A DNA stretch of 64,000 nt, from positions 5,273,504 through 5,337,503 of the forward strand of contig OZ038460.1 of NCBI GenBank assembly GCA_964036195.1, in the 5' to 3' direction. Made by a program: the position numbers and the translations under genes. The stretch is from Sphaerolaimus hirsutus (lineage: Eukaryota; Nematoda; Chromadorea; Monhysterida; Sphaerolaimidae). Shown here piece by piece: positions 17,760 to 64,000 of the stretch (position 1 is the first letter of the stretch; each line of letters begins with the position of its first letter). The notes under the pieces are model-generated. The model was not told the origin of the DNA. It saw nothing but the letters and a program-made list of their open reading frames with translations, and searched no databases.

Positions 17760-19679
17760 TGTCATGAATCCGTGTATTCAGCTGTTTTTCGATTACACGA
17801 TTCACGAGGTTTTTTACCGCACTTTTCCCTCTATTCCCACTTCACCGGCCGCTTGCCGCTGCAGTGCACTGCACTGGGCCCGGAGGTCCAGATTATAAAT
17901 GCGTGTTGTAAATTTTAAGGAAACGTGTCCGAAGACGGTAGGTTTTTCAGAACGTGCGATGAACCACTCGGTGGCTCACGCTGTTCCGTTTCCCGCAGCA
18001 CGCACAGCACTTACACTCAGCATAAGCAGCGCGGTAATTAGAGCAGTTGTTAATTAGCTAACTAAGGGAAAAAGTTAGTACTTAGTGCCAATACAAAAAG
18101 GGGTCCAAGTTGGGTTGAGAAGAGAGTTTATTTTTTTGGGCGATGGAAGAACAGTAGCGGCAGAGTAGAAGCAAAATTAGCTTACGTCGCATCGACGAAG
18201 TTGTTGGAAAAAACAATTTCAGCTACTTATAAGGCAATCAAGACTACCATAATCGACTTGAATGAAAAGCTAAAAAAGACATAACATTGCGAAGTTACAA
18301 AATCACTTTCAAATCACATAAGCTCTGATGTAAGCACTTAGTAAAATCGTACGTAACGCAACTGCTTGGAGTATTAATTAAGATCAGCTAACAAAAGTAA
18401 TTAAAAGCTTCATGCGACATGGGGCTAAGTCTATAAGTTACAAGCTTATTCGGTGCAACAATTACTCACTTCCATAATTACCTACAAATCCCTACTTAAT
18501 ATAAAACGACCTAAAACAAATAACAATGCAGTGCAACGCATTTTTACAAAAACGGAATGAACAAAGTATGTACAAAGGCAATTACGGCATCATAATCCAA
18601 CACAGCAATTTAAGCTAAATAATTAGACAGCTAACACAAGCTTACAATTAATGTTAATTAATTAAGATACAGAACGATTAATTAAGCTCGTGGGAATGAA
18701 AGGCATTGGCGTGAAACGATCTGTACAATAGTTTCTACATGTCACATGGAAACTTTGCTTGGGGGTTTTGTATTCATTAGTTACGGTAGCTAGAGAATGC
18801 TCGCGGGCGCGAAGTGCTTATCACCTCCAGTCCCGCGACCCACTATTGTGACTATCCGGTCAGCTAGCGCCCGTGAGAAAGGTTTCAGCCCGATGGCCAC
18901 ACCCTTCCGAGCGCGAGGAGATATTTATGCTAGGGCGGCGGAAAAGTATTTTTTTGGACTGCGACTTGTCACTTGGGGCGTTATCAGAAGCTGTTCCTAC
19001 CACCCACCGATACTAGATGACGCACGACAATCTAGTCAACATGGGGAGGAACGCGGAACAGTGCTTTTGTATTTTTTGAGTGAGATTCATTGTTCCTGGC
19101 TTCCGGTCGCCACCTACCTATCAGCCGTCAGTCTCCGCCTCTGCCCAAAGATAAGTAAAGGGTAAAATGTGCTTTAGACCGCCCAGAGAGTCACAACAGT
19201 GTGCCGGCGAGCCCAAAGGCGGCCACACGCCGCGCCGCGGCATTTCAAAGTGAAAAATGTGAAATTCCCCTCTCACCTTATGCCATGTGGAATGCAGTTA
19301 CACCTAAGTTAGACATAACCTAGCTAAATTGACTTAAATAGATTTGGCGCACGAAAATAGTAATTAAAATTGGGGGGTAAGGAAACGAAATTGTGCAGAG
19401 CACTACAACCACTATAAAACAAGGCGAACTCGGTCAGCCCAGGTAGCGGCGTCGATCTTGCGATGCAGTGCTCTGACGGGGTACTGCGCAGCCCACTGCA
19501 GGACTGTGCATGCCATGCAGTCCCCGTTGCCGTCGAAAAGCCGCCGTAATGTCTGAGAAAGTTTGCCCAAATTTAGTTTACAAAATACATAGTAGTTTAC
19601 GTTCCGTGAATTATTATTGCATTTGTTTGTCTAAAATTTTGTGGGGTGGTGTTTTTCCCATCGTAAAAACGCTCTTACA
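17760..19679 (-). repeat. LTR (5' LTR in element sense), 1,920 bp
   Basis: Same length and termini as 1639-3558. Read on the minus strand it starts TGTAAGAG and ends TCATGACA, directly before the internal region. It should carry the element promoter. A possible TATA-like ATTTATAATC lies on the minus strand at about 17891-17900, roughly 135 nt before the LTR end, which would imply a very long U3. That promoter reading is inference. Confidence 0.95.
17891..17900 (-). promoter_or_regulatory. Candidate TATA box of giant element
   Basis: The minus strand reads ATTTATAATC, placed so that transcription could begin in the last ~110 nt of the 5' LTR. The same motif is in the other LTR near 1770-1779. 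Only the motif and position support it. Confidence 0.3.
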
Positions 19680-20895
19680 CCTGTGTGTTGACCTTGCTGA
19701 CTTACCTTGTTTTACCTTACCTTTGTTCAAAATTAGTCACTTGACAAAATACTTGACACTTGACACTAAGCAAAACAGTCCCCAGCTATTCCATTGCCAT
19801 TCGATAATGGCCGCGGGTCACACAGTCGTAGATGCGCCACAGTTCGCCCGTACATCCCATCCCCGTGTGGCGCACTTGCATGCATCACTTAGTGCTTTTA
19901 GCTTTTCCGGTGTGCACTGCGTAAGTGCTCCGCACCGGTAAGCATGCCGGGGGGGGGGGGGGTTGACGGCAGGTTGTGTGCACAATTTATGTGTTTTTGT
20001 CGGTATATATGTGTGTGTGTGTGTTTGTGTGTGACCAGCTGCCGCTGCAGTGTACTGGGCTGGATGGTGGCTTTGTCACGGGATATACTGCAGCGGCGTG
20101 TGATGACTGTATGTCTGTGAAGTGTGACGTGTGATTGTTGCAGCCGTTGGGATCAGACGACTCGTCATAGCCTAGCTGTTTTTAAATGTGTGAATTTATT
20201 CGTAATTACGTTATGTATTATTTCGCTTTCTTTTAACCAGGCGCGATAGATATACATGTATGTGTATTTGAGTACATAGCAGATTCGTAATGTATTTACA
20301 TAAATCTTAGACAGGAGCAAGCAGCGATTACACCATGCTCTTAATCAAAGGTAATCCCTTAACATCATAAGTTTTGCTGCCATTTAATGTATTTTTTATG
20401 AATACCTTCGTGTGAATTATTTTTGTTCTAGGGCGTGATTCGTGGGTAAAGTTGTGTATAGATCTCTTTACCAAAATAAAACAATTTTATCTGCCGGAAG
20501 TTGTCGGATTTGTATCGATGACCGGGAAATTTGCTGGGTAATTTCGCAGTATCTAATATTTATAAAAAGTAGTAACACTCATTTTGCACAACTGTGTACG
20601 GACATCCGTCGACAAAGACAAATAACATGGACTATTTTATGCAAAATATCTAAGCAACAGTACTTTTTATACGTAATCAGCGCCGCGCCTGTGATGAATA
20701 TGCGCATTATTACGCAAGCTGTTACCGAACGATGTTCAGAACATTTTACACGCTGAAATCATGGACAGACCGTGTTCCCTCCAAATACTGTTAAGCAATG
20801 ATGCTGTCGTAATGAAACCACATCGTATAGACCGAATCGACACTGCCGCGGTGATATAACAAGCCCATCAAAAACGCCGCCAAAAACTATGCGTA
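19680..20895. other. Intergenic region with simple repeats
   Basis: A run of about 15 G lies near 19948-19962 and a GT microsatellite near 20007-20032. I see no supported exon. Confidence 0.5.
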
Positions 20896-22967
20896 ATGCG
20901 GCGCGGCGCGGCCCACAGCGCGCGTGAAAAGTGCGACGCGCTGCACTTGGACGACATACCCGATATCGACGCCGACTCGCTGAACAACTGCGACAACGCC
21001 CACGCCAACGCCAACGCCAACGCCAACGCCAAGGTGACTGGCGTCGGCGTCAAAACTTCCAGGGAGTGCAGGCCGTATTGTTGCGGCGTGCGGCACGCCA
21101 CCACCAGTTCGTACGCGCTGGTCGCGCTGCCGCTAAGTGAAAGAGAGTTTCTGTTGCTGTTGGCACTGTCGCTGTTGGAATTGGCTAGGTGAATTGGATC
21201 GTTGTGTTTTTTGTTTGTTTGTTTGTTTAAGTTCCTTATTTTGGGTGTCTTAAGTGCTGGGGCCGGACGATTTTTTTTTTATGGCTGACTGCCCGAGAAA
21301 GTTTAGTTTTCTGATCGCTAGGCAAATGATTTCAGATACTGTCAATCAGGGGTCTCGAATTGGGGGGGGTTGGGGGGGGGGGGTTACCCCCCCCCCCCCC
21401 AAAACCGCCCAGCTATCTATCTATCCCGGAGGCCGCTCAGCTATCTATCTATCCGGAGGCAAAATTTTGGGCTACTACCCCCTAAACCCCCCCCCCCCAA
21501 ATCGCCCAGCTACCTATCTGGAGCGATTTTTCAGAAACTATACCCCAATTTTCGCTCAAAATCGCTATTTTTCATACCTATATATAAATTTTCACCTCCA
21601 AAATAACTGGTTCATGCGTCTAACTGCCTATTTTCAGCTATTTTAAGTACTATATGCTATTGTATACCCATTTTGAGCTATTTTACACCTACTTTCTCCC
21701 TTTTCTTCCTTCTATGCCAGAAAAAGCCTATATATCGAACCACCACAACCCCCCCCCCAAACTCCCCCCCAACCCCCCCAGAAAATTTTTCAGCTATCTA
21801 TCCCTCCGGAGGAGCGATTTGCTATCTATCCAACCACTCGGAGGGTCAAAATTCAAGATACCCCTGCTGTCAATAGTCACGCGTTGGGGATATTAAGACA
21901 GCAAAAGCCGCAAAAATCGCGGCCCCACTCACAGAACCATTCACCCACCTCAATAAAACCCCGAACCGAAACCCCCAAACCGAACCCAAACCCAGGCACG
22001 CCACCTTGTTCGCGCTGACCGCGTCCGCCGTGCTATTCGACAGCCCCATCGGGCGCAGCTACGCCATAACGCTGCTCAGGTGCTACTCCCAAAGCCTGTA
22101 AAAAGCCCTGTCAAATGTCATGCAAAGCGTCAAAAATCATGGAAAATGCCCTACAAAATGGTAAACGTACGTTTGCCATTTTGCAGGGCATTTTCCATGA
22201 CTTTTGACACTTTGCATGACATTTGACATTTTACAGGGCTTTTTACAGGGTCTGGGAGTGCCCCCAGCGCCACTTTCCTGGACGCGGTTCTGTTGACATT
22301 CGTGTGCGCATTGACGGTGCGATCGCTCTTCACCGCGCACGGGAGCGATTCAGTTGACAGATTGAAGTGGTATCAGAGGATTTGCTTGGTCGTCAATGTG
22401 AGTGTGTATTTGTTTGGTTGCTCTCGTTTTTGTGTTCGTTTGTTTTCCGGGAAATTGACTTATGATTACAGAACAATTGGGGTGCGTGAAGCGCCGTGAA
22501 GTATCGTGAAGTGTTATCGTTGGGTTTTGGCGTGAAGTACTCACATAGATACTTCGCGTCGCTACACATGCCGTGCAAAGTATGCCGCTTGATTTGTGAG
22601 GTTGCGATTACAGATTCTGATAGCCATGAAGAGGGGTGAAGCACGTGATAGGCTATTCATTAAAAATCTCGTGACGCTTGTGTAAGTGCCTTTACAGCAA
22701 TTAGTTCTGGCCCACCAGCCAGCTTCCACACGCTTCCCGAACCTCTTTTTTTGCAGCGAACCATGAAAATTGCAGATTCTCATCGCGCTAGGTCGCCTGG
22801 AAACGGTGGGAACTTCAACAATAGCCATTTTTGACAGCGACAGCAGCTGGGCTATCGATTGGCCTCAATATTGGCAATTGGTTGCAGATTTGGTCATTCA
22901 GACACTTTGCGCAGTTGGCAGGGCTTGGTGGCTGGTGAAAAGTGGTTATGGTATACGGGAACTTTGA
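20896..22967 (+). CDS. Multi-pass membrane protein, unrecognised family
   Basis: Four exons whose phases agree: 20896-21188, 21996-22079, 22268-22397 and a last exon from 22757 or 22776. All introns are GT...AG. Exon 1 encodes a hydrophilic acidic N-terminus with an Asn-Ala repeat from (GCCAAC)n at ~21004-21030. Exons 2-3 encode hydrophobic helices (HATLFALTASAVLF, FLDAVLLTFVCALTV). The join at 22079/22268 restores an AGC codon and a continuous hydrophobic stretch, and that intron is a MITE. For the last exon, acceptor 22776 gives a 63-residue hydrophobic tail ending at 22967; the better polypyrimidine acceptor at 22757 gives a short basic tail with an earlier stop. The upstream Met at 20896 is a guess at the start. 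I do not recognise the family. Confidence 0.6.
22080..22267 (+). mobile_element. MITE that is exactly an intron (introner-like)
   Basis: The exon ends CTCAG, the element begins GTGCTACTCCC and ends GGGAGTGCCC, then CCAG and the next exon. The arms (CCCTG..AAAATG, ..GACACTTTGCATGAC) are long inverted repeats meeting near 22170. Removing GT...AG joins AG to C as Ser and keeps the frame. The CAG before the element and the CAG after it look like the target duplication, the second serving as splice acceptor. Confidence 0.8.
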
Positions 22968-23364: not shown

Positions 23365-26074
23365 ATGTATTGCCGATCAGCTACGGACATTGTTCAGAGA
23401 TTGATTTTTCGCGTGGATATTTTCCACTTGCTGCTATTGGCTATTCTTGATTTCAGAATTGCATCATCCACATTGGCATTCTCTATCACAGGTAAAGTAA
23501 ATATATTTTATTCTTAAAAGTTTTAAAACAACATTACTTACATAATTATCTGCTTTAATTACATAATTCAGATGGACCATTCAAAGTCAATCTAACTGCA
23601 ATATTGGAAGGAGTAAATGCCGATTTAGTACCACATAATTACCTTCACAATGGTATCGATCTCAAGGCTAATTCCAGTTCTAATTCTAATATCATGGGTC
23701 AAAAAGATCCTGGCAAGCTGCCAATGCCCATTGTCAGCTATGTAAAGCAAAGAAGAGTGAAGAAAGATGAAAATTTGGACCGTGCAACAGTGCGGCAGAG
23801 AAGATCGCCTCCAATAGGATTGATACCAGGTAAATCTTGTCATTGTCCTTTAAATTCAGAGAAATATTTTTGCACGCTGTGCATCAAAAGTTTGAGTTTT
23901 TTATTGAACGTTTTGTATGAAAGAAAAATCATAAGTGAAACGCCCCATATTTTATCCATACAAACGTCGTTTGCTATTTTCTGGGGCATTTTAGACTAAC
24001 ACTATGCATGGCATTTGACATTTTCTACGTCTGCGCACGTTATTAGTACTGGGAGTTCACAAAAATTCTGGGGAAATAATAACCCCCCTCGACTTACCCC
24101 CTTGAATTACCCCCCCCCCTCGACATACCCCCCTCAAAATTCTCACTCTGAAAAAATTAAACCCCCTGGGAGTATTTGGAGGAAATACGGTAGTCTAGGA
24201 TTGGCAGCATTGTATTTATCATTTCAGGGCGCGGCCAGACACTATACCGGGTCGCCCTGGAGGACACGTTGCGGCGGCACGGCAAGCTGATCCACGCCAA
24301 CCGCAAGGACATGGACATGTTCGCGGAGATGTTCGTGCAGCAGGCGACCCTGTCGGCCGGCCTCAGCGCCAGGGTCAACGAGCCCGCCTTCGCGCTCAAT
24401 GTGGGTTCCTTCCGGGTGACTAATTCAGTTGGACCGTTTTTCTGGCGCTCTTCCATCACTAAAGTAATATGAACTGTAATTTTATGCGATATGGACAGTT
24501 GCCATGATATAGCGCGAGCACAATTCTTCAAAATACTCTCAAATTCTCCCATTGAACACACACACACAATACCACAATAATTACACACAATACCTTCCAG
24601 GGGGTATTCAAAAATATACAGTAATCCCTCACAATGATCTGCTTAAATACATCACACACAAAAAAATATGAACATATCCCTAAAAAACCACTACCTCTCC
24701 CAGTTCGACAAACTGGCGAACCAAACCCGTGACGAATACGCACAAGGCAAACGGCGTTATCACCAAATCCGATCGGTTTTCTTCGCTGATGAAGTTCTAA
24801 GCCGGCGCAGACGGGAGAACGGAGGCTGGGGATGGTGGAATACGGTGAAATCGTGGTTTTCGAGGTGAGTTACGGGTGCGGTGCAATACTTTAGGGGTTG
24901 AGGGCAGTCCCAGACCCTGTAAAATGCAACCGAGTTGCCATTTTGCAGGGCATTTCACCTGACTTTTGACACTTTGCATGACATTTGACATCTTACAGGG
25001 CATTTTACAGGGTCTGGGAGTGGCACTTGGTCGATGATTATTGGTCGATGTCACTCGCCTGACGTCTGAACTTTGTTTTTGTAAAAAGCGAGCATAAACA
25101 CACGCTGTCGTTAATTCGGGTTACAGTATTTTTCTAATAGAACGGCACGGCACGCCTTCAATAGAAGGGCACCTCCAATAGAGCGGAAGGTTTTCGCACG
25201 TTAAATAACCACGACAAATAGGACGGCACCCTCCAAGAGAACGACACCTCCAATAGAACGGCAGGTAAAAATTTGACAAAAAAAAATTGAACGGCGCTTT
25301 TCTATTAGAAGAAATACGGTGTTGCAATTTTTCGAATTGGTCAAATAATCGGGTGCATTGCGAATGGGTCCATTGATTTTTGCTGCATAACGAGTTTCGT
25401 CAGCCAGGCTTTTACGGTTGTACTTTCTTTCACATGGAAAATCGAGATTATTTTAGCTCGGAAAAAGTAACTCTGTACCATGTAAATATTTAAGTTCCCT
25501 CCGTTAAGTGACAAATTTCAGAGAAAGTGTCTAATTGGCAGATGTTCGGAGTTTACGGATGTTCGGAGATGATTTACAAGGAATTTGAAGCTTTGTCACA
25601 CGAACATTATCAACCTCACACTAAAATACCACAAAATCCCAAAACCCTCAATTCAGACTGGACATCATGTTGGCGCTGGGCGCCAGCGGCGGCACGGCCA
25701 CCCTAATAATCACCCTGGTCGCCAAAATCATGTGGAGCCGTTTTCGGGCGCGCCGGCGCCACGGCGCCAGCCGCCATGGAATTTCCGAGGCGCCAGGCTC
25801 CCAAACGAATCAAACGCATCTGCATTTGTACGGAGTGAACTGCGACGATGGAAAAACGGGCGCGGATAAAAAAGTGCTGAAAAATAAAAATAAAAATGAG
25901 AAGAATAACAATAATTGTGATGATCGCAGTTTTCGGGTGGATTTTGGCAGTGATTTGTGTCAGAGTGACAAAGTGAATACTCATAATAAGAGACGGGGAT
26001 TGGCTATCACGAAGTATAGAAATGATAGGAAAGAGTCTAAGCGACCTGTATCAGATCTCCCAATGACTGTGTAG
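23365..26074 (+). CDS. Secreted/single-pass membrane protein, unrecognised
   Basis: Five exons with matching phases: 23365-23491, 23572-23829, 24228-24400, 24704-24864 and 25657-26074 (stop TAG). Every intron is GT...AG. The predicted protein is about 378 aa. The N-terminus has a hydrophobic signal-like stretch (FHLLLLAILDF), then a basic segment with KQRRVKKD and VRQRRS (possible proprotein cleavage sites), a soluble central region (YRVALEDTLRRHGK..), a Trp-rich GGWGWWNTV and, in exon 5, a TM helix (GTATLIITLVAKIMW) followed by a basic Asn/Lys-rich cytoplasmic-type tail. Introns 2 and 4 contain MITEs. A putative AATAAA is at 26303-26310, just before the second LTR element. I do not recognise the family. 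Confidence 0.65.
24901..25026 (-). mobile_element. Foldback MITE, intron-forming family, intronic copy
   Basis: Ends AGGGCAGTCCCAGACCCTG and CAGGGTCTGGGAGTGGCAC are inverted repeats; TTG flanks both sides (24898-24900, 25027-25029), a 3-bp duplication. It sits within intron 4 of the 23365-26074 gene in the orientation opposite to transcription, so it would not act as its own intron. Confidence 0.75.
25123..25321. mobile_element. MITE with ACAGTATTTTTCTAATAGAA ends
   Basis: Terminal inverted repeats of the type TATTTTTCTAATAGAA / TTCTATTAGAAGAAATAC enclose repeated units such as ACGGCACCTCCAATAGA. It is intronic in the 23365-26074 gene. No ORF. Confidence 0.6.
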
Positions 26075-26313: not shown

Positions 26314-26472
26314 TGTTATGTCTGGTGAAATGCACACGTTGTTTTGTGACTGTTTTGATGGTATTTATGTATGGCCGTGAGACGCATCGAGAGGTTGACA
26401 TGAATAAACATTGTGACTAAAACCCCCTTGCTTGCACTGCTTGAACTACAAATCAACTAGTAGCCGGCAACA
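26314..26472 (+). repeat. 5' LTR, 159 bp
   Basis: Begins TGTTATGTCTGG and ends GCCGGCAACA. Identical by eye to 33633-33791. Short for a Ty3-type LTR. Confidence 0.95.
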
Positions 26473-26473
26473 G

Positions 26474-26491
26474 TGGTGGACGACCTGGATC
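26474..26491 (+). other. Candidate primer binding site
   Basis: One nucleotide after the 5' LTR the sequence reads TGGTGGACGACC, beginning with TGG as a PBS should. I could not assign the tRNA. Confidence 0.45.
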
Positions 26492-26530
26492 AAGCTTTAC
26501 GCTACCCAGTGTCCAAGGGGTCAATTTGTT

Positions 26531-29500
26531 ATGTCTGATTCCTCATCGTTTCGGCGGGTGGAAGGGCGTAGGCATACGCGTTCGCACCCAATCAACCCAA
26601 TCACGGGTTTCCGCTTTGATTCAGCCGCTCAAAGACAGTTTGAAGCTGCCGCTTTACGTGACGCCGTTCATGTCAACAGAGCTCCTTTAGTTCAGAGTGA
26701 AGAATTCTGGCGACCCGCCAATGAAGTCCTCCAGTTATCCTCAGCATCTGAAACGGCAGTTTCGCGTCGTGTCGCTCTCCCTGTACCACAGTTTGTTTTG
26801 CCACCTTTGCGGATTGCACAGTCAGGCTCTCCAGTCGTTTCTCCGACGGTCGATTTTTCGAGGCCACCGCCTCGCTTTTCAGCAACAAGACATGTCACTC
26901 TTCATGACTTCAAACAGGGGAAGCATCCCTTCGCTATTCATCATTCCGATGTCGTTCACATTACTCCTCAACCAAGGACACCTTTTCTCGTGCAATCTTC
27001 TCGGTTCCCAGGAGGGAAATATTTATCGGAGGTCGATTTTGTCGATGGCTTTTCAAATCGGCATTACGTCATGGAGTCACCTTTGATTTTGTCTTCAGAT
27101 GACCAGCCTATTCGCGATGAGGAGAATCATGAAACCCATGAGGATCATGGAATGCAAGAGCACGTTTTTGCATTGGATTCTCGTTTGTCCCGCATGGAAA
27201 ATATGTTCGAAAAGGCTATGGCGCAGTTGACGTTGTTGAGTTCACCGGCACCCAATTCGAGTTCACCAGCAGTTGACATTGCACCCGAAAATGTCGCTCC
27301 AGTCAATATTTCGCCACCCACAGTCGATTCGCCACCCACAGTCGATTCGCCACCCACAGTCGATTCACCATCAACGGCCGTGCCTGAAAACGATTGGTTG
27401 TTACAGGGCATGGCTAGGGCACCACAAGCCATGGCGAAATCAACTTCAGTCGACATTTTACACCAATGGATGCTTGTCAAGCCCCATTTACTTGATAAAA
27501 TTCCAACGTTCAAGGGTAAAGGTGAGGTCATAAAATTTTCTGAGTGGCAGAGAAATGTTGAAGCCACAGCGAGGTCGATTACCACTCCAGAGTTATTGTC
27601 ACATTTTTGGGCTGACGTTTTTTCCACGAAGTTGTCTGGCGAAGCCTATAAAGTGTTGAATGTTTTGTTCAAACCCGAGCAGTTGTCTGATGTTTCCACA
27701 GTTATGTCGTCTTTAACTGATGTCTTTAAAGATCGTTCGAAAAGTTACACCATGTTGGAGTGGGACAACGCGGCCATGACAAGAGTTGAAACTTTAACTG
27801 ATTTCTATCTGAGATTATTGTCTAAGGTCCCGACAGATTTGAAAACAGGTGTCAACAATTCCAGGGAATGTGTGGAGGGTGTAGTTGCGGCAAAATTTTG
27901 GTCACGGTATGACACCGTACGTTTTGACAAATATGTAATGGCCAATTTTCGAAAACAATTTTCCTCCAATTCGCTACCATTGGCCAGGGCTTTGCAAATT
28001 GTTGAAGATTATTTCGCTGATCTCGTTAAACCACCGACACAAAATCCGATCCGATCACAAAATCCACCTCGAATTCCAGTTGTTCGTCAAATTTTGCAAC
28101 AGTCAAATGACCCTTGGTGTCCCAGGCCTGGACACTTTGGGCATCGCACCAGCCAGTGCCGCATGGGTAAAATAATTCCAGGTGCAAATTCCACCCCGCC
28201 AGTCCCGTTTAGCATGAAATCAGAAGGATATGGACACGTTAAACGTTTCGGGCCGCAACAAACTCATGATACACCCGTACCTCGATCTCAACCGACGGCT
28301 AAAGCGGCTAATTTCGTTAAGGTTGATAAATCCATTGAGCAAAGTGTCGATGAAGTCGATAATTCTCCAGAATTGAATGATTTGTGTGAAACGAATGTTG
28401 AAAATGATATAAATGACCCTTGTGCCGAGTATGTGTCCGAATTCCAGCACCGTGTTTCTCGCTTATACAACGATGATCCCGGTGCGTTCGCTGGGTGGAA
28501 TTCCACTTTCATTCACGCATTACCCATTCTCTCACAGAGTTATGCGGGTCACGAATTGGACAGTTTTTCCAAAACGTCTTTGCCGATGCATCAACTTCCA
28601 CCGAGCGCGGGGAGTGAAATTGAAATTATGAATGATCAAAATCGGCATGATAAAAAATTGGATGGTAAAAATTTGAGTGAAAAATTGGATGAACGTGTTG
28701 TTTCTGCTACTGATGTCAACCCCATTGCTGGAGTTCTGTGCACATTTCATTCTCGAAATAAAATTGGCGTTTTGAGACAGGTGAATTCCGGTATTTCTGC
28801 ACATACAGTTATTGGTGAAAACCAACGATTGTGTGTAAAACTCGCATCTACTAATGGCCCATTGGTATATTCAACTGTTAACATTGCGGGAATTCCATGC
28901 CGCGTTTTATTGGATAGTGGCTGCACCAGATCGCTTATCCCTATTTCTCTCCTTAAACAAATTTCTGAAAAATCGAACACTGATTTTGTGTCTCAACTAT
29001 CCAAATCAGCTGTTTGTCTGGACACAGTGAATGGTCCAACTTCATCAGGGGAATTATTTGAAATCCGACTATTTGTTGAGCACATTTCGCCCATCGACCA
29101 AGTCCGACGCAAAGTTCTTACGGTATTTTTGGTGAATAAAAATCCTGACGCCTTAACTGAAATTCTTTTGGGCACCGATGTCATGCCATTTTTACGCATG
29201 AGCTGGTTAATTCCTCTTATTCTTGAGAAAAATTCAGAAGCTACGCTGCCACAGGATTGTCCGCAGGTTTCCCAGCAGGTTGTGGAGAATGAGGATCGAT
29301 TCCGTACCATTTACTCGAAAATTATTGCGTCTACAAAATCGCTGTTTGTGCCAGCTCATGGTACATTAACCACGGGCTTTTCGATGCTGCAAAAACCTCA
29401 ACATTTATCCCAGAAGGATTGGCGTAGCTCAGTGTTGATTTGTTCCAATGTGGAGGTACCACATACTGGTCTGTCGATGCACAACACCCTGATCCCTGTA

Positions 29501-32500: not shown

Positions 32501-32575
32501 TTTACCGTTGCACAAAGATTTGTTTGGCGCCTGCCGGTATCCAATAACGATACTTCCTCGGAAGCGAACATTTGA
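26531..32575 (+). CDS. Gag-Pol polyprotein of Ty3-type element
   Basis: The frame is open from 26432, but the first Met lies in the LTR. ATG 26531 (MSDSSSFRR) is the likely start, giving about 2,014 aa. Numbering from 26432: a Pro/Ser-rich N-part with three PPTVDS repeats (~295-312); Gag-like helices (~355-530); a zinc knuckle at ~561-577 in which the second Cys is Pro (CPRPGHFGHRTSQC); protease DSG at ~827; RT with YIDD at ~1336; RNase H TDAS at ~1494; integrase zinc module ~1720-1765; DDE residues near HMD ~1788, SDRG ~1845 and VERANR ~1881; a GPF-type C-terminal module ~2000. No frameshift separates Gag from Pol, as in Tf1-like elements. All catalytic motifs look intact. Clade within Ty3 not determined. 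Confidence 0.92.
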   Translation: MSDSSSFRRVEGRRHTRSHPINPITGFRFDSAAQRQFEAAALRDAVHVNRAPLVQSEEFWRPANEVLQLSSASETAVSRRVALPVPQFVLPPLRIAQSGSPVVSPTVDFSRPPPRFSATRHVTLHDFKQGKHPFAIHHSDVVHITPQPRTPFLVQSSRFPGGKYLSEVDFVDGFSNRHYVMESPLILSSDDQPIRDEENHETHEDHGMQEHVFALDSRLSRMENMFEKAMAQLTLLSSPAPNSSSPAVDIAPENVAPVNISPPTVDSPPTVDSPPTVDSPSTAVPENDWLLQGMARAPQAMAKSTSVDILHQWMLVKPHLLDKIPTFKGKGEVIKFSEWQRNVEATARSITTPELLSHFWADVFSTKLSGEAYKVLNVLFKPEQLSDVSTVMSSLTDVFKDRSKSYTMLEWDNAAMTRVETLTDFYLRLLSKVPTDLKTGVNNSRECVEGVVAAKFWSRYDTVRFDKYVMANFRKQFSSNSLPLARALQIVEDYFADLVKPPTQNPIRSQNPPRIPVVRQILQQSNDPWCPRPGHFGHRTSQCRMGKIIPGANSTPPVPFSMKSEGYGHVKRFGPQQTHDTPVPRSQPTAKAANFVKVDKSIEQSVDEVDNSPELNDLCETNVENDINDPCAEYVSEFQHRVSRLYNDDPGAFAGWNSTFIHALPILSQSYAGHELDSFSKTSLPMHQLPPSAGSEIEIMNDQNRHDKKLDGKNLSEKLDERVVSATDVNPIAGVLCTFHSRNKIGVLRQVNSGISAHTVIGENQRLCVKLASTNGPLVYSTVNIAGIPCRVLLDSGCTRSLIPISLLKQISEKSNTDFVSQLSKSAVCLDTVNGPTSSGELFEIRLFVEHISPIDQVRRKVLTVFLVNKNPDALTEILLGTDVMPFLRMSWLIPLILEKNSEATLPQDCPQVSQQVVENEDRFRTIYSKIIASTKSLFVPAHGTLTTGFSMLQKPQHLSQKDWRSSVLICSNVEVPHTGLSMHNTLIPVNGTQRFSIQFVNENSFPVQLSDKTPLMKCDVVDKKAIYSPGANFAALFGEPRYLSSFGIEPGVVRTPMASSITLPEPPSSSENRTVLVENIPTDPKDRAMHIWSKISQDVQIPLSEENKDKFFKLISEFHDVFSCSDYDVGRTPLISHKIITDPTQPPIKQAARYEPRNKREFIHKTIASMLKEGIIETSDGAWASPITIAPKGTSDFRFCVDFKQVNLITKIDSYPLPRIGELLSEFSGRKIFSALDIRHGYYNIPLADEQTRERTSFVCSLGQYRYTRLPFGTVNAGASFQRLMNVLLSGLNDNPSSPWVRAYIDDILCSSFHVSEHFSHLRRLFDRLRWANLKIQPAKCKFFATSLKYLGHQISADGISPAPARYRAVIEQPKVHTKQDLRRFLGKCIYYSHFIPNFSRISAPLYTVLKGHVPKNGSTPFEWTEDMLTAWDTLKHMLSTSPVLAHPVFDDPRGFILETDASCQGLGAVLSQYDKQGKLHPVSYISKRLSHPHTSYSAAALEALCICWALRRFADYIEGQKVTVITDNSGIQQVLRSPHYTKLERWAMFVQDKVHSFVHRPGVQNAVADALSRNPISESEFGVDELKLPSDLVSGLYTTCQIQDKVVCARAEPLLSTHVEIDWIKIQQDDHALKEIIDILKKEPDSVKDAFLIDGILYCRAPVTSRHLAIWPPKAWQHACLIQAHMGIYASHGGQARTLELLCNYFAWPNMKQDIINFCAQCSECMTNKAHRVNTAPLGDISTPSQPFDIFHMDVMFFDKNSKKKVLVVVDALSRYMITAVLGSLSAATISRVVYNQIFMVYGAPRVIVSDRGREFVNVDFRQLCESFGVTHSPTLAHNPAANGIVERANRSLRESLLFSQREFPGQNWPHLVPMATLRCNMAMNHSTGCCPFYIVFGHLPHWNLFYSAARQIDPQAARSIARTQSDKNRALYKKRFDSKHAVIFNVNDRVMVRRLSAEKNLPKFDGPFVVVSVSSATLLLRDDDGNIFTVAQRFVWRLPVSNNDTSSEANI

Positions 32576-38006: not shown

Positions 38007-38212
38007 CAGGGGGCAGTCCCAAACCGTGTAAAATACCCTGTAAAATGTCAAATGTCCTGTAAAGCGTCAAAAATCATGTAAAATGTCATGCAGAACGTCA
38101 AACTTACTTTTACTGAGCATTTGACATCTTTCATGACATTTTACACTTCTCTTGACACTTTACATGACATTAGAAACTTTACTTTACACTTTACATGGCG
38201 CGGGACTGACAC
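38007..38212 (-). mobile_element. MITE inside PGAP2-like exon 3 (CTG target)
   Basis: On the coding strand GGCCTG is followed by GTGTCAGTCCC... and ends ...GGGACTGCCCC CTG then GTGCTGGC. The intact paralogue reads GGCCTGGTGCTAGC at 47258-47271, giving the empty site. Arms are inverted repeats of the same family as 22080-22267. Donor GT is present; the acceptor position reads CTG, not CAG. Confidence 0.85.
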
Positions 38213-39650: not shown

Positions 39651-39842
39651 CAGGGAGCACTCCCAGACTCTGTAAAAAGCCCTGTAAAATGTCAAATGTC
39701 ATGCAAAGTGTCAAAAGTCATGGAAAATGCCCTGCAAAATGGCAACCGAGTTGCCATTTTGCAGGGCATTTTCCATGACTTTTGACACTTTGCATGACAT
39801 TTTACATTTTACAGGGCACTTTACAGGGTCTGGTAGTGGCAC
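39651..39842 (-). mobile_element. MITE inside PGAP2-like exon 2 (CTG target)
   Basis: On the coding strand GCGTCCTG is followed by GTGCCACTACC... and ends ...GGGAGTGCTCC CTG then GTCCATCGG. The paralogue has the uninterrupted GCGTCCTGGTCCATCGG. The arms (AAAATGGCAACCGAG / TTGCCATTTTGCAGG) form an almost perfect hairpin. GT at the 5' end, CTG at the 3' end. Confidence 0.9.
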
Positions 39843-40767: not shown

Positions 40768-40921
40768 GTGCCAGTCCCAGACCCTGTAAAATGTCATGCA
40801 GTGTCAAAAGTCGTGTAAAATGTCAGGTAAACCAACGTAAGTTTGCTATTTTCCCGAGCATTTTACACGACTTTGCCACTTTGCGTGACATTCGACATTT
40901 TACAGGGTCTGGGACTGCCCC
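40768..40921 (+). mobile_element. Intron-forming MITE family, intronic copy
   Basis: Starts GTGCCAGTCCCAGACCCTG after CCCTG and ends CAGGGTCTGGGACTGCCC before CCAT. In intron 1 of PGAP2-like copy 1, antisense to that gene. Confidence 0.7.
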
Positions 40922-41317: not shown

Positions 41318-41509
41318 GTGCCAATCCCAAGCCCTGTAAAGTGTAAAGTAAAGTGTCAAATGTAAAGTCAAATTCAAAGTAAACTGGCAATTGACATGCA
41401 AAGTTCAGTAATAAAATCTTTTCTTTTGTGTTTTGATTGACACTTTACTTTGCATTTGACTTTACATTTGATACTTTACTTTACACTTTACAGGGCTTGG
41501 GACTGCCCC
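41318..41509 (+). mobile_element. Intron-forming MITE family copy
   Basis: Starts GTGCCAATCCCAAGCCCTG after GACAG and ends CAGGGCTTGGGACTGCCC. Long inverted arms (TAAAGTGTCAAATG...). It abuts half of a palindromic element (41258-41308, GATACGCACATCTGCCCG) whose full form is at 45499-45864. Confidence 0.7.
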
Positions 41510-44528: not shown

Positions 44529-47500
44529 TCACACGAATCGACCAAACTCCTCACAAAAGCTTCCATCCGGTCGATAATCGACATTCGACCGGAATCTTTC
44601 CGAAGTTGTCGGCACTTTCGCGATTTTCGTGCCGCACGCGCAACAATCGCTTTCATTCGCGCAAAGTCGACGCACATCGATATTGTTGCTAGTCGACAGC
44701 GTGTCGAATCGGGCGAATAGACCCACGCGAACGTGGTAAAAGTCGATTAGAATTAGCATGTTGAAAAGACCTTCGCACAGGCCGACTGTGTACTCTGCCA
44801 CGGCGAATATTAGGTAGACTGCGTGTATATATTTGTCGGTATACGTTTTGTCACAGGACAACTTGACACGTGACGATTCGTCACAGGGATTTCTCAAGGG
44901 AAATTGTGACACATACCCAACTGGAAACATGACCGCACATGTCAATATGGGCCCACACACACTAGTTGACATCGCAAATTCGCGTCAACTCAGTGTCAAT
45001 CGAATAAAACAAGAAGTTTGTAAAAAGCATCACACTTAACAGGAGCAATGAAAATGAAGTGTCATGATGTAAAATTGACTATGCTCTATCAGATAGATAA
45101 GTTGAGATCACAGTATCACTTAAATTCAGTTGACATTTAGTTGACACGAATTCAGTTGACATCCAGTGTGTGGGGGCCCTATGACACATGTCAATAAAAC
45201 AGCAGATTTTTCACCCAGTTTGAGTTGTAAACACATTTGTAATTACAAATGTAAAGTTATGCTTTCACTGTAACATACCGTATTTCCTCGAAATACCCCC
45301 AGCGGGTTTATTATTTCGCCAGAAAATTTTGAGGGGGGTAAATTCAGGGTGGGGGGCTTATTCAAGGGGTTTTTATTATTCCGTCAGAAAATTTCGTGAA
45401 GGATCGTAGTAATGAATAGGCCAAGCCAAAACATACCCAAAACTGGTAATAAATGAGACCAAACACGATGTATTTGGACGTATTTTACGGGGCAGGCCTG
45501 ATACGCACACGTGCCCGATACGCACATATGCCCGTTTTTTTCACTTGACACTTTTTCAAGTGATTTTCAGATATGAGTAAAGTGAAAAAAAGTTGCGCAA
45601 TGACATGAGTGAACTTTTTTCACTTCACTCATATCTGAAAATCACTTGAAAATGTGTCAAGTGAAAAAACAGTGAAAAATAGCCATTTTTCACTGTTTTT
45701 CATTTGACACATTTTCAAGTGATTTTCAGATATGATTGAAGTGAAAAAGTTTACTAATGTCATTGCGCAACTTTTTTTCACTTTACTCATATCTGAAAAT
45801 CACTTGAAAAAGTGTCAAACGAAAAAAACGGGCATATGTGCGTATCGGGCACGTGTGCGTATCAGTGCACGCCCGTATTTTACATTGGGATATATGCATA
45901 TCTAGACAAACTTGCGTACCTATGTGTAGCTGCGATTAGGGTGTCAAATTTCCGTTTTCCGTTTTCCGTTTCCGTTTTCCGCAGGCAAATTTTTTCCGTT
46001 TTCCGTTCCGTTTTCCGGCCGCTGAAATTTTTTTTCCGTTTTCCGTTCCGTTTTCCGGCCACCTTTTTTTCCGTTTCCGTTTTTCCGGCTCATTTTCCGT
46101 TTTCCGGTTAAATTTTCAGTTTTTCCGCCTTTTTTCCGTTTTCCGGCTCAATTTCCAGTTTTTCCGCCTTTTTTCCGTTTTATGCCTCAATTTTCTGCTT
46201 TCCGCATCATTTTAGCCTTTTCTGGCTCAACTTTCTGTTTTCTGTTCCAGCCAAACTGGTAAACAGTCATGCATATTGTCAATTATGTGGAAAAAATTCT
46301 TTTTCCAGCAAAATTTCAGTGAATTTTATCGTTTTTTTGGCAAAATTTCAGCAAATTTTTCCATTTCCATGCAAATTCCATTTTTCCGTTTCCGTTTTTC
46401 CGGCCCCTTTTTCCGTTTTCCGGCCACTGAAATTTTTTTTCCGTTTCCGTTTCCGTTTTCCGCCAAGTGCAATTTTTTTTCCGTTTTCCGTTCCGTTTTC
46501 CGGCCGCTGAATTTTTTTTTCCGTTTCCGTTTTCCGTAAAAAAATTTTTTTGACACCCTAGCTGCGATGCAATTTGGGAGCAATGAATACATCATGTACA
46601 TTGCATATATGATGTACATTATTCCAGACAAAGTATTTCGAGGGGGTCAATTCAGGGGGGGGGGGGGTAATTCGAGGTAATACGGTATACCTAAAGGCGT
46701 AAAATGAAACCCAAACGTGAAACTGACTTTCAGCGATGCAGTAATGTCTGTAGATAGGGTAAAATGTGGCTGTGATAAACATGCTGATCCACATTACCAC
46801 AGTTATCACCAGTTTGATCCAAAAAGACACATATGCCTGTTAAAAAGGTAATGGAGCCCGTGCATTTGACTTTGCCTGTTATAACCTTCAATACATCTGG
46901 CACTAGGGAAGAAAGATTCGAAAGAAATTCGATGGTAAAGAAAAATTCGAAAATACGAAAACATTTTTAAAAACAACTTTTTATACTTTTTCAAATTTTC
47001 CATTTTAAAATTTTTAAATCTTCCATTTTATCTTTATTTTATAAATTTTCCTGAGATTTTGCCAACCCAGCTTAAAGCGCACAACAGAAACCACCCAGCC
47101 CCCATCCATCCAACCTTCATCGAAGTACCCGCCCATCCACTGGCCCAATGGGCGATAGTCACGTGCAACATGAGCGCGCAAGCTCCGCCTATCCACGAGA
47201 CAACCGCCACGATGTGCAGCTCGAAGTGCGCGCGGATGTCGAAGATGCTCGCTAGCACCAGGCCGAGCGCTTCGAACCAGCCCGCCGTGTAGATATGGCG
47301 CGCGAAGTATTGGTACCTGGGCCGGAGTCCAATTTGAAGGTAGGGCGCGTGTGGGGTACCCGGCATGACAGTAAGCGTGTGAAATTGGGTGCGGGCACGG
47401 GTGGGTGGGGGGAGTTTGGTTTTTATAACATTGAAATTGAAAGTGTCCATAGCGGTTTTCAAAACTAAAACTTCATTTGCGACACGATCCAACAATTTTG

Positions 47501-49121
47501 CATTTGAACGTCGTTAGTCAGGTGAAGCTTTGAATTGAACCAGTTGACATTTGGCGTCGTCGCAAACTATTCTCGGATACAGAAACTAATCACTACAAAG
47601 TAGTGATAAAATTGCAAATGCAAAAATATTCAAACCGTCAAACATTTATAACAAAAAACACATTCAGATCCGCTTTCCACTCACCACTGTCTATTGTACC
47701 ACCTCACGGTGGTGGCGCTCAAAAACAGCTCAGTATACATGAGGTAGTAAAAAATGCGCAATGGCAAATGCAGCACGATGCCGAGCAGCCAGATGTGTCG
47801 CTGCGGCTCGAACACGCCGATGGACCAGGACGCCGCCGGCAAAACCACAGATGAGCTCTCGCATGAAGTGCCTGCGATGAAATGGGAGAAACTCTCAGTG
47901 CATCTAATATGACCCCGGTGCATCTAAACTCTCACTGGACTGGGGAATTATTAGAGCAAAAAAAACAATATACATAGCCCCGACTAGGGTTCAAACGGGA
48001 ACGCGGTCTCGGTACATGGTTCGGCAAAAAGTCGGGACTGGGGCGGTCCCGGTCCCGGTCCCGACACCCCAGTCCCGGTCCCGGTCCCGACAATTTAAAA
48101 AAGCCAGTCCCGGTCCCGGTCCCGACCACCCAGTCCCGGTCCCGGTCCCGGTCCCGGAATTTTATAGTGGTCCCGACATTGGGTGGAAAAAACGTATTTT
48201 TCAAAAAAAAATTGCCAGAAATGGCACTTTTCTAAAGCGATTTTGTAGGAACATACAAAAAATTTTTGCGCGCAAATACCCAGCCAATGATTACTATGTA
48301 TTTTTCCATAATGTGACAGCATTAGAAAGGTCCTAAACATGATTCTAGTACGAAATATAGGTATATAAAGATACCTATATTGTAGACGTTGGCGCCAACG
48401 CCAGCGCCAATACTGGCATGGCGTTGGCACCTACAACTGGCGCCGCCCCCCCTCCCAAAAAAATCCTGTGTACATTGCGTTTCATCATATATTCACAAGT
48501 TCAAGTGAAGATGGCAATGGAATACTGCTTGAATAATGTTATAAGAAAAGGCTAATACATTGAGAGTGGTCCTTCACACAGTGGAGTTGTGTGGAACAAC
48601 ATTGGCTGGATATTACATACCAATAAGGTTCAAACAATACCGCAGTGCCGGTACCTGGTTCGGCAAATCCCAGTCCCGGTCCCGAACCCCCAGTCCCGGT
48701 CCCGTCAATTGCCCGGTCCCGGTCCCCCAGTCCCGGTCCCGACATTAGAAAATTTCTGGTCCCGGTCCCGGTCGGAAAAACTGGTCCTGTTTGAACCCTA
48801 GCCCCGACCCCAAACCACAACATACTCGAACGGCGTCAAAACCGGCCAACGTACAACAGAATGGGACGACACGAAAGTCTGCTGGACCCCTCCCCCCTAA
48901 AATGCCACCCTCAATTTTTTCAAAGAGTGCAGGACACCAGCGCAAAAAACCTCAACCTCCAATCCCTCCAACCTTCATTGGTAAAATTGGCCAAAATATC
49001 GCCATGCAAATGGTAAGTCAGCACGCACACGATCCAAGAATTCCACAGGGGTATAGTTATGAACAACAAAGTCCAGCGCACGGGGAACTCGCTCAGGATT
49101 GAGAAGGCAGCCGGGTTGGGT
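44529..49121 (-). CDS. PGAP2-like (FRAG1 family) membrane protein, copy 2
   Basis: Minus-strand exons with matching phases: 49121-48973, 47871-47685, 47316-47115, 46836-46728 and 44818-44529 (stop). All introns are GT...AG. The predicted part is ~311 aa; an upstream exon with the start codon is expected beyond 49121, since exon 1 begins at an acceptor (CCCTTATCCAG). Family signatures: an FPVRW TM, the GTSC segment, PQRHIW..IVLHLPLRIF, SIFDIRAHFELH, a TM pair and the last-exon LIFAVAEYTVG helix followed by FYHVR. PGAP2 proteins remodel GPI-anchor fatty acids in the secretory pathway. The ~60-residue C-tail after the last helix is Cys/Asp-rich and unusual. Tandem paralogue of 37863-41158. Intron 1 carries a hAT-like repeat, intron 4 two further repeats. 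Confidence 0.75.
44949..45181. mobile_element. Foldback element, GGGCCCACACACACT ends
   Basis: Ends GGGCCCACACACACTAG and CAGTGTGTGGGGGCCC are imperfect inverted repeats with AGTTGACA motifs inside. In intron 4 of PGAP2-like copy 2. Confidence 0.5.
45276..45360. mobile_element. Partial MITE, ACCGTATTTCCTCGAA family
   Basis: Left end ACCGTATTTCCTCGAAATACCCCC is clear; the right end is degraded. Confidence 0.5.
45499..45864. mobile_element. 366-bp near-perfect palindrome
   Basis: Begins TGATACGCACACGTGCCC and ends GGGCACGTGTGCGTATCA. Arms contain four copies of the CATATCTGAAAATCACTTGA motif in alternating orientation and meet near AATAGCCATTTTTCAC. A half-copy is at 41258-41308. Confidence 0.8.
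45937..46560. mobile_element. hAT-like MITE with satellite core
   Basis: Ends TAGGGTGTCAAAT and TTTTGACACCCTA; perfect 8-bp target duplication GCTGCGAT on both sides. The interior is CCGTTTTCCG and TTTTTCCGGC variants, the reverse complement of the core at 34220-34800. Confidence 0.85.
46625..46686. mobile_element. Partial MITE, ACCGTATTACCTCGAA family
   Basis: Contains TATTTCGAGGGGG, a G run, and a right end TAATTCGAGGTAATACGGTA. In intron 4 of PGAP2-like copy 2. Confidence 0.5.
47985..48800. mobile_element. hAT-like MITE with GGTCCC satellite core
   Basis: Ends TAGGGTTCAAAC and GTTTGAACCCTA; perfect 8-bp duplication GCCCCGAC (47977-47984, 48801-48808). Two blocks of (GGTCCC)n-type repeats lie at each end with unrelated sequence between. 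In intron 1 of PGAP2-like copy 2. Confidence 0.85.
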
Positions 49122-58066: not shown

Positions 58067-61000
58067 ATGGGTAACACGTGTGGGTGCTGTTCACGCTGCT
58101 GCATGCGGCAGGGCGGCGGGCAGCAGGGTGATGGCAAAGCTGATGGCCAGTTGATACAGGACGATGGCACCGTGAATAATGGAGGGCCACCGGGCACAAC
58201 TGGGTGAGTTGGGGGGGGGGAGGTTTTTTTTTGGGGGGGCAATGGATGTGTGATTTAAATAGCTATGGGAAGAGTTTTGAGTGGATGTGTGGGACAGTTG
58301 ACAGTCATTCATTCATGGCAGTATTTTTATGTTCTCATATTTATGCAAAATTTCATTGTTCACAATTTTATTAGCTCGACTTACCATTCAACTTATTATC
58401 ACTTATCGCACTTTTTGACACTAGACCGCTGCAGAATTTCCTTCAGAAAAGACATAGAAAAAGTCATCAAATGAATCTACCTAGCTCTAGAATGAATTAA
58501 TAGTTTTGATCTTTATCAACTATTGGACTGATACCGTATTACTTCCAATATAAGGTATACCTCTAATATAAGGCACATCTGGCTGCGTGCCAAAAGTATA
58601 AAATCGTAGAAACCGTTGCCAAACATTGCGAAAAACGATGAAAATGGCATTAAAAGCCGATGTATCAGTATTGTAAATTTCTGCTGTCGACCAGTTTCCA
58701 TGGGCAGGGTTGGCAAAATCTCAGAGAAAAATAAAAATAAAATAAAAATAAAATGGAAAATTATAGAATAAAATAAAATAAAATAAAATGGAAAATTAAT
58801 AAAATAAAAATACAATTTTACTAAAATTCGAATTTTTGTAAAATTTTAGTAAAATTGTACAATAATTCGAATTTTTGTACAATTTTACTAAAATTTTACA
58901 AAAACTCGAGTGTCTGTTAAATTGTATAGAAAGTTTTCTATCATGTTGCTTGAGTTCCTAGCTGCCAATTTGCAGAACTAGTGCCTTGTTGTATCTTTCA
59001 TTGTTGTGATTGAAACATATTGTTGCTCAAAATTGCAAATTTTCACATTTTAAAAAATATTTTCACCTTAAAGATAACTAATTTATGTGATTTGCTTCCC
59101 ATTTTCTTTGTTCCATACCTTGAAAAAGCCTATATATTGAACCCCGCAAGCCCTCCCCCACCCAAATAAAACAACCAAATTTTAGGTATCTTCCCTTGGG
59201 AGGAGCAATTAGATGCATATATCCAGGACCTCCTGAGGGTCAAAATACAAAATGCCTACCTCACAACTCATGTCAAAAGTTAACATAATTTTTTTTGTAT
59301 TCATCTGCATGCTTCTAGCATGCACATTGTTTTATGTCATTGCATCCAAGATTTCCGATTTTTTGTAAAATTTTTGTAAAATTATTGTAAATTTTTGTAA
59401 AATGGTTTCATTTTATTTTATTAATGACATTTCATAATAAAATAAAATAAACTGAAACATGAATAAAATAAAAATAAAATACAATTTTAATAAAAATAAA
59501 ATACAATTTTAGTAAAAAGAATTTTACTAAAACCAACCATGTCCATGGGCACTAAATTCGCCAACAAAATTCCTCCAATTTTCCAATTCCAATCCTCACC
59601 CACCCCCACAAATATTCCAAAATTCACAAACCAATAAAACTATTAAAAAACAGGAACCCATCTCAACATTCTCAACAACAAAACGGCGCCAGATCGAAGG
59701 CGCGCCGGCGCTCGGCCGCCAGCCACCCGCCCAACCAGCCCGCGTCCGGCTTGGACCAGGTGCCGACCCCAGAGCCATGTAAAATGTCATGTAAAATGTA
59801 AAATGTCATGCAAAGTGTCTGCAACGTAACGTTTGCCATTTTGCAGGGCGTTTTACATGACTTTTGACACTTTGCTTGACATTTGACATTTTACAGGGCA
59901 TTTTACAGTCTCTGGGACTGCCCCCAGAAGATCACCGCCGAAGAGGGGGAAAGGAAATTGACGTGTCCCGATTTGCCGGCTTATGAGGCCAGTCCCAGTA
60001 CTAGAAGACGGACGACCACACCTAATTTGTTGCTGGGCGGATGGCCCCTGCCCGCTGGTTTGTTTGGTGTTTTTTTTTAAACTTGAAGGGGTTTGTATTT
60101 AGATGTGGTCTAGTTGGTGGCAATTCGACCACAGTTGTTAAAATGTACGTAAATTTACTCGACAAATACGCGTACGCGTAATGTAATGTACTTTTTTAAG
60201 TAATGTTTTACGCGTACATTTTACAAGTACACGCATACAGAGAAAATGTATTTTCGTTGCTAAAATCCTAATTTTCTGTTGCTGAAAAAAGAAAATTTTG
60301 AAGAAATCATATAATTTTTCTAAAAAAGACTAAATAATCACTAAAAACGACATTCATTATTTATGTCTTCCAGTGTAAAACTCACTCTCACATGTAAAAT
60401 GTAGTAGCTTTTACGTTTTCCAGGGGAAAAGTACTGGCTTTTACATATTCCTGGGAAAAAAAACTGTTTTACTCACGCACGCATGAGTACGAGTAAAAAA
60501 AAGTATTTTACATTTCTATACTCTTTGGTGAGTAAAAAATAAATACTTACATTTACATATACTTTTTAAAAAAGTTAAATAATTTTAACAACTCCGAATT
60601 CAACAAGTGGCAAAAAAATTGGCAAGTTGCTGTGGCATACTCCGCGGATCGCATGCTATACATTCTTTTGAAAGAATGACGTGACGTTATCCATCATGAC
60701 GTTATCGTCAATAAAATAAAAATCGTTCCACAAAAAAACGTTGCATGAAAAAAACATTCGAGTTGCATGAAAAAAACATTCGACGCTTGCACGCGACTCC
60801 GCTTTTTCTTTTTGGAACATTTTTTGTGAAGTACGTACATAAGTATCCTACTCGAGCATTATCGACTACAACATGAGTAATTTAGGACACATACTTTGCG
60901 GTCCGCCGAGACTAAGTGATGTTATAAGCGATGGGCATTTTAATTTAGAACATTTGCAGATCACGTCAAGTTTACTCGCCCCTCAAGTTAACACCAATAA

Positions 61001-63077: not shown

Positions 63078-64000
63078 GTGGGTTTGGGTGCGGTGGGGTT
63101 GATTTTGGTTTGGTTTTGTGATTGATGGAAGAGTGTATTTACTTGTGGAATGTTTTGTACGTTTTATGCTTGCCCGTAGGGTCTCATTGCGTTCAAATTT
63201 TACGTGCGTTTAACACGTTGCAACGTCGACTTTTCCTAGATATTTTTTTGCTGAACCTCAGTGATTTTTCCCCGCATTTCCATTGCTGCGCATCACGATG
63301 AAGCTATACCAGGGGGCTCTTAAAGGTGTTTAATCGTAGCCCAATTATTCATCCAAAAACTTTCACGTGTAAACTTTCAGTAACACATGCAAAATAAATC
63401 AGAGCGCACGAATTTTTAGGTTATGCGTTATAATTGAAAGTTTTGCCAGTTAAGTTACCGATGTTCATTTTTGTATCCGCTTTTAAATTAGGTATGAATA
63501 AACAATGGGGATTATTCGAGTAAGTACAATATGTCAATTATCTATGTACAGCATTTCCTTCACTGTGAAAATCTCATCACCCCTCCCACAATCAAAACAT
63601 CCCCAATCCAATTCGATCAAAACATGTTTTCAATTTGGCCATGACCGCGTTGGTGGCGGTGGAGGAGGCTGTGTAATTCCAATGTCACCAACTGGGGGCA
63701 CTCCCAGACCCTGTAAAGTGCCCTGTAAAGTGTCAAATGTGATGCAAAGTGTCAAAAGTCATAGAAAATACCCTGCAATTCGGCAGTCGGATGTCAATTC
63801 CACACTAAGTCGTGAGTTTGCCATTTTCCAGGAAATTTTACATAACTATTGACACTTTGCACGATATTTGACATTTTACAGGGCATTTTACAAGGTCCGA
63901 GAGTGGCACCGGGAGCGCGCCCAGGGCTATGATGATAATATGGACCGGGGGCATCGCACCACCCCCAGTTACATGTGCATCTAAATTCCATTCCATAGTG
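63078..64000. other. Globin intron or downstream sequence with MITE
   Basis: No plausible continuation of the globin fold is seen. The MITE at 63692-63909 lies here; on the minus strand it could be an intron between short candidate exons. Confidence 0.4.
63692..63909 (-). mobile_element. Intron-forming MITE family copy, minus-oriented
   Basis: On the minus strand CTCCCG is followed by GTGCCACTCTC... and ends ...GGGAGTGCCCCCAG then TTGGTGAC, i.e. GT...AG. Joining the flanks keeps an open frame (LGALP-LVTLELHS..) that ends in a stop near 63622. Whether a minus-strand gene exists here is not established. Confidence 0.65.

Follow-up and report, generated by a model that had tools for sequence, protein, structure and literature searches.

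The window, the whole 64,000-nt stretch of Sphaerolaimus hirsutus DNA analyzed here, holds a short foldback element at 22080 whose bounds nearly coincide with those of a putative intron, raising the question of whether this element is itself the source of the intron. We consider, with a probability of roughly 0.88, that it is an introner, namely a CWG-targeting MITE whose GT tip would serve as the 5' splice site and whose duplicated CAG would serve as the 3' splice site, with splicing deduced from the DNA.

The foldback element and its host gene

On the plus strand, the locus reads CTGCTCAG/GTGCTACTCCC ... GGGAGTGCCCC/CAG/CGCCACT, with a 3-bp direct repeat of CAG on either side of the foldback element (22080-22264). 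When 22080-22267 is taken out, the sequence becomes CTC AG/C GCC, encoding Leu-Ser-Ala in an open frame, and the joined reading frame is HATLFALTASAVLFDSPIGRSYAITLL-S-ATFLDAVLLTFVCALTVRSLF. The earlier note had described the intron as a foldback transposon from end to end, whose excision gives a serine back; the arms, the 185-bp bounds and the CAG/CAG repeat confirmed the former, and the codons CTC AGC GCC with their open frame the latter. Its placement of the donor at the element tip and of the acceptor in the duplicated CAG is supported at the DNA level, and splicing is predicted at exactly the 22079/22268 sites. The element with short flanks gave a predicted RNA folding energy of -133.6 kcal/mol against a mean of -52.0 for shuffled sequences (z -19.5), and no long pyrimidine tract immediately precedes the AG in the 3' end of the predicted intron, GGGAGTGCCCCCAG. 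Because the same tip (GTGCC or close to it) recurs beside CAG or CTG in unrelated flanks, position 22080 is a true element end, and because the family occurs genome-wide, the element is not a chance structure. The view that CAG belongs to the inverted repeat rather than to a target duplication was rejected, as the flanks of family copies are mostly CAG/CAG or CTG/CTG, and TTG/TTG in two.

The assembly that contains the window (348,482,957 bp in 762 contigs) was searched with the 71-residue peptide that the two flanking exon parts encode. Three paralogs uninterrupted at this site were found: paralog P on the same contig, 49 kb away (71/71 codons, 96% identical), one on C2 (41%, residues 1-71, with the junction gap-free in the alignment) and one on C1 (44%, residues 4-51). 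These matches, at 96% identity in paralog P and lower in the other two, show the host frame to be a real gene, and the opposite view was ruled out by the paralogs together with the divergence from paralog P (dN 0.022, dS 0.135). No Pfam domain was found in the joined 224-aa host protein, nor were relatives outside its own genome in a set of 5.8 billion proteins. The corresponding site in paralog P is CTCACG versus CTCAGC in the window, and is thus homologous to the target but not the unchanged target. Paralog P carries its own 388-bp element with the same tips and CTG flanks, located after the base matching 21120, within the equivalent of exon 20860..21188, which is continuous in the window gene. 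The window gene and paralog P have therefore each gained a different element. The suggestion that the family is recent agrees with these different insertions in paralogs 96% identical over 71 residues, and with the 3.8% divergence of the 22080 copy from the family majority sequence.

Other copies of the family in the window are listed in the table. With the element at 59760..59924 removed, SGLDQ/KITAEEGERKLTCPDL is joined. Gene A, which carries two elements, has a paralog, gene B, with both sites empty; the Pfam Frag1 match of gene B (E 4.5e-7, 30.1 bits) is slightly below the cut-off of 30.3. Comparison of the two genes gave dN 0.22 and dS 0.83, indicating that gene A evolved under constraint for a large part of its past; even so, it may have been broken recently.

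Table. Positions in the window of the element, its host gene and other family copies
Feature	Position	Strand	Remarks
Host gene, upstream open exon	20860..21188	+	Constrained versus paralog P; start approximate
Exon part before element	21995..22079	+	HATLFALTASAVLFDSPIGRSYAITLL(S)
Left CAG target copy	22077..22079	+	Final bases of upstream exon part, ...CTC AG
MITE/introner element	22080..22264	+	185 bp; start GTGCTACTCCC, end GGGAGTGCCCC; palindromic arms
Predicted phase-2 GT-AG intron	22080..22267	+	Element plus right CAG; splicing deduced from DNA
Right CAG target copy	22265..22267	+	Would give the 3' splice site AG
Exon part after element	22268..22398	+	(S)ATFLDAVLLTFVCALTVRSLFTAHGSDSVDRLKWYQRICLVVN
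Host gene, last exon	22776..22967	+	ILIALGRL...GIREL, stop
Family copy	24901..25026	-	Target duplication TTG/TTG
Second element in gene A	38010..38212	-	WFETVGL/VLASIFDI; sense-strand target CTG; continuous in gene B (47.3k)
Element in gene A exon	39654..39842	-	Frag1/PGAP2-like gene; sense-strand target CTG; continuous in gene B (47.8k)
Family copy	40768..40921	+	Flanks CTG/CAT
Diverged family copy	41318..41509	+	36% from majority sequence
Gene B exons with both empty sites	47037..47923	-	Paralog of gene A
Second GT...CAG copy	59760..59924	+	Flanked by CAG (59757-59759, 59925-59927); only the open frame marks it as exonic
Family copy	63695..63909	-	Flanks CTG/CGG

The element family across the genome

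The earlier note had proposed a genome-wide search for the family. When this was run, the exact 23-base left end was found 922 times, 490 after CAG and 432 after CTG (reversed-pattern controls, 0), and a further search of the assembly gave at least 83 matches, with 40 of 1911 first-look candidates scored. The target of the family is C(A/T)G (CWG), a point beyond the earlier observation. The excess of CAG over CTG at left ends is small genome-wide (binomial p 0.06), suggesting that selection for CAG is not strong. Short length, inverted repeats, target duplication and high copy number place the family among MITEs, and a literature search for a paper naming it found none.

For closer study, 38 further copies were taken with 3-kb flanks, picked by similarity to the 22080 copy, together with 40 more with short flanks, comprising, on the CAG-left side, 20 of the first 25 places (of the remaining five, one was already in the copy set) and, on the CTG-left side, the first 20 places. 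Family elements start with GTGCCACTCCCAGACCC and finish with GGGTCTGGGAGTGCCCC, so that the two tips are unlike (GTGCC versus GGGGC). Among 86 copies with distinct tips, the first bases were GT in 83 and GA in 3, the finder accepting only these two, and the left/right flanks were CAG/CAG in 34, CTG/CTG in 19, CTG/CAG in 9, CAG/CTG in 2 and other in 22. The surplus of CTG/CAG over CAG/CTG copies (p 0.065) hints that AG is selected for on the right side. Measured against a majority sequence built from 47 full-size copies, divergence ranged from 1.6 to 39.9% in a sample that is not unbiased, with 3.8% for the 22080 copy. In addition, a tandem array on C4 (G000:C4:881751-982294, L089-L098) strings together ten right ends with CTG flanks at intervals of about 7-15 kb, and inflates the genome count of CTG right ends (269). 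Looked at as a possible gene array, it had flanks that are not coding-like and degenerate left ends, and is therefore silent on splicing.

We deleted the element and one target copy from each of the 86 copies and took all junction-spanning frames of set length on both strands, yielding 120 frames in the sense orientation (GTGCC tip first) and 90 in antisense. Pfam scanning of 117 of the sense frames matched 43 families (25 listed), with Fn1_2 among the matches, while all 90 antisense frames together matched one, at residues 83-121, past the junction at 60; no domain spanned the junction among the 90 antisense frames. The joined proteins, including the one from the matching antisense frame, were then scanned individually against Pfam. 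A domain was made continuous across the junction in 14 of the 86 copies, all 14 in sense: KxDL (L013), WD40 (L014, site 1424), COMM (L017), Sushi (L018), LDL-A (L029, with a GA rather than GT tip), TSP1 (L030, with one extra base before the right CAG), rhodopsin-type GPCR (L033), FLYWCH (L035, CAG left and CTG right), CUB (L043), carnitine acyltransferase (L059), chondroitin transferase (L073), lipase (L080), glycosyltransferase 11 (L082, below the Pfam cut-off) and bestrophin (L086).

In alignments to solved structures, the GPCR, carnitine octanoyltransferase and bestrophin had no gap at the junction, and the alignment to gastric lipase was gap-free there, with one 1-residue gap two residues earlier. 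A COP1-like gene (L014, G000:C15:18590048-18596250) contains three elements within 1.8 kb, all in sense and flanked by CAG/CAG. Its parts, joined by eye, match human COP1 over query residues 10-227, with two junctions gap-free and the third in a loop that exceeds its human counterpart by 12 residues. Two copies were left uncounted, L028, whose LDL-A match begins at the junction and whose left flank is unrelated, and L060, whose lipase match begins at the junction in the row scanned. In L061, PLC-Y and C2 pieces flank the junction, both below the Pfam cut-off and neither spanning it. Readings by eye of L064 as PRMT5-like and of L049 as SMYD-like were set aside after nothing was found in Pfam or PDB for the former and in Pfam for the latter, and a codon-usage classifier (31 sense and 13 antisense copies) was dropped as wrong on clear cases such as the GPCR copy. 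As a separate observation, L060 and L080 are neighbouring lipase genes (C1:12.059 and 12.066 Mb) with an element at the corresponding place, and their left target copies differ, CAG in one and CTG in the other; the target copies possibly changed after duplication.

Competing readings and known introners

In the mechanism that we favor, a non-autonomous DNA transposon (MITE) would insert with duplication of a 3-bp C(A/T)G target, and its GT-starting tip would then serve as the 5' splice site. At 22080, insertion into an exonic CAG on the sense strand would turn the AG of the duplicated CAG into the 3' splice site, and the spliceosome would remove the element together with one CAG copy, so that the mRNA stays as it was before. 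The bounds, the target duplication, the empty sites in paralogs, the exact coding restoration and the bias to one orientation are directly observed. The features by which introners are recognized were found here: a single sequence family with many copies genome-wide; insertion into coding exons where homologs have no intron (the 22080 copy, gene A and the 14 domain copies); ends that are plausible splice sites with exact frame restoration, for copies with AG on the right; and exonic copies lying in the orientation of transcription. The analysis thus supports the view that the 22080 element works like an introner and, by every testable DNA feature, would be one. Against this view, the AG has no long pyrimidine tract just ahead of it, the very stable hairpin could hinder splicing, and copies with CTG on the right occur in exons too, for which the GT-AG scheme has no explanation.

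Alternatively, an ordinary MITE might have disrupted one of two gene duplicates, in which case the GT...AG fit would simply follow from the CWG target and the tip. The intact paralog could cover the function, nearly half of the exact left ends (432 of 922) follow CTG, and many family copies have no spanning coding frame. Breakage, however, predicts both orientations, and the domain-interrupting copies are all in sense (two-sided sign test, 2 x 0.5^14, about 1e-4); moreover, the COP1-like gene still has a readable propeller after three insertions, and the last exon of the host gene, downstream of the insertion, shows 0 nonsynonymous versus 6 synonymous differences to paralog P. We consider this reading quite improbable. 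MITEs often lie within introns, which would suit an older ordinary intron at this site later filled or replaced by a MITE, but here the intron consists, to the base, of the element plus CAG, and the three paralogs are uninterrupted (the nearest one shares 96% identity over 71 residues), so that such a history is very improbable indeed. It is also unlikely, if slightly less so than breakage, that the element carries both splice sites, its GT start and, 6 bases short of the element end and 9 nt ahead of the exon, the AG of GGGAG, each insertion adding three codons (here SAP). This AG is found in 27 of 34 CAG/CAG and 14 of 19 CTG/CTG copies, the 9-nt remainder stays in frame, part of the CTG class would become spliceable, and an Aureococcus introner adding 12 bp is known (PMC9860276). 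Yet exonic copies exist without it (L014 sites 1424, 2373 and 3008, L029, L035, L082 and the 38.1k copy of gene A), and three added residues would fall in gap-free stretches of bestrophin, GPCR and carnitine octanoyltransferase.

For the introner reading, the copies with CTG on the right need separate treatment, as their exact excision gives GT...TG and not GT...AG. Those in exons represent one of three things: TG 3' splice sites, use of the inner AG in frame, or broken genes. Splicing as GT-TG introns, with TG picked at the second step owing to a canonical TTTTACAG 19 nt upstream, is a possibility to which we give somewhat less than even odds. Seven such copies have exon homology support (bestrophin L086, CUB L043, glycosyltransferase L082, FLYWCH L035, the 39.7k and 38.1k copies of gene A, and that of paralog P), all seven in sense, and L082, L035 and the 38.1k copy also have no inner GGGAG. 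Pfam domains were spanned in 4 of 20 CTG-left versus 1 of 20 CAG-left copies, giving no sign that CTG-left copies are scarcer in exons, with the caveat that two of these four have CAG on the right. Also in favor, the human TG 3' splice sites described in PMC2374985 are all accompanied by an AG no more than 28 nt away. On the other side, the hosts may be broken, since gene A is backed by its paralog B and paralog P by the window gene, and a FLYWCH gene such as the host of L035 can belong to a transposon. The mixed copies favor CTG/CAG over CAG/CTG, 9 versus 2, as if AG were preferred. Furthermore, TG is never the sole 3' splice site in the human genes of PMC2374985. More tentatively still, one CWG introner family may yield both GT-AG and GT-TG introns in an animal, with CAG and CTG ends alike tolerated in sense exons and the 3' site set not by AG itself but by the hairpin or the distance from TTTTACAG. 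If true, the genome would amount to a natural experiment, on a genome-wide scale, into the rule for 3' splice sites.

Huff et al. reportedly traced in 2016 the introners of Micromonas and Aureococcus to non-autonomous DNA transposons, with the target duplication used in splicing. The 22080 family resembles these as a non-autonomous DNA transposon whose target duplication would take part in splicing, and differs in lineage. Among the introner types described by Gozashti et al. 2022 (PMC9860276), the Chrysochromulina type carries the 5' splice site and obtains the 3' site from the target duplication, and most families leave mRNA length unchanged. Like that type, the 22080 family is present in many copies, its element bringing the donor and the target duplication the putative acceptor; unlike that type as described, it has a 3-bp CWG target, long inverted repeats and an animal host (PMC9860276). 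Aureococcus introners, different from the 22080 family, are described there as bringing both splice sites, with 12 bp added (PMC9860276). The same 2022 survey reports introners, among animals and land plants, in only two groups (PMC9860276).

Amoebophrya introner elements, as described in PMC7789003, form hairpin introns with inverted repeats and direct repeats of 3-5 nt at exon borders, and the 22080 family likewise combines a hairpin, inverted repeats and short border repeats. Many of the Amoebophrya borders are non-canonical and diverse, and no family-specific inverted repeats are reported in that account (PMC7789003), whereas the 22080 copies form one family with near-fixed tips and CWG targets. 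In Fritillaria borealis, according to PMC13326754, animal introns tolerate non-AG 3' ends and repeat a triplet class at both borders; there the triplets are YAY and the commonest non-canonical termini AG/AC and AG/AT, unlike the GT-AG, or possibly GT-TG for CTG-right copies, of the 22080 family. Nonconventional introns of the Euglenid type are defined in PMC4770533 by non-canonical borders, and the 22080 copy, despite its strong hairpin, is set apart from them by its GT...AG borders. This animal genome thus offers over 900 exact element ends, close paralogs that were hit differently and a COP1-like gene with three elements. New introns would be open to study soon after their birth, with an intron-free twin as the reference, and the CAG versus CTG insertions would provide a direct test of how strictly the spliceosome requires AG.

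Other features of the window

Exons at 62129-63102 (+) are globin-like by eye, with single exons giving no Pfam match. Two direct repeats of 1920 bp, 99.95% identical (1639-3558 and 17760-19679), bound an 18-kb LTR retroelement on the minus strand, which was inserted very recently. Its open reading frame at 8428-11223 (-) encodes reverse transcriptase, RNase H and integrase. Also inside it, at 4162-8175 (-), lies a 1337-aa open frame matching AAA_12 (E 2.9e-23) and, weakly and below the cut-off, AAA_11, a helicase that we take to be UPF1-like and an unusual cargo for a retroelement. A separate second retroelement at 26417-32575 (+) consists of a single 2052-aa open frame with reverse transcriptase, RNase H and integrase.
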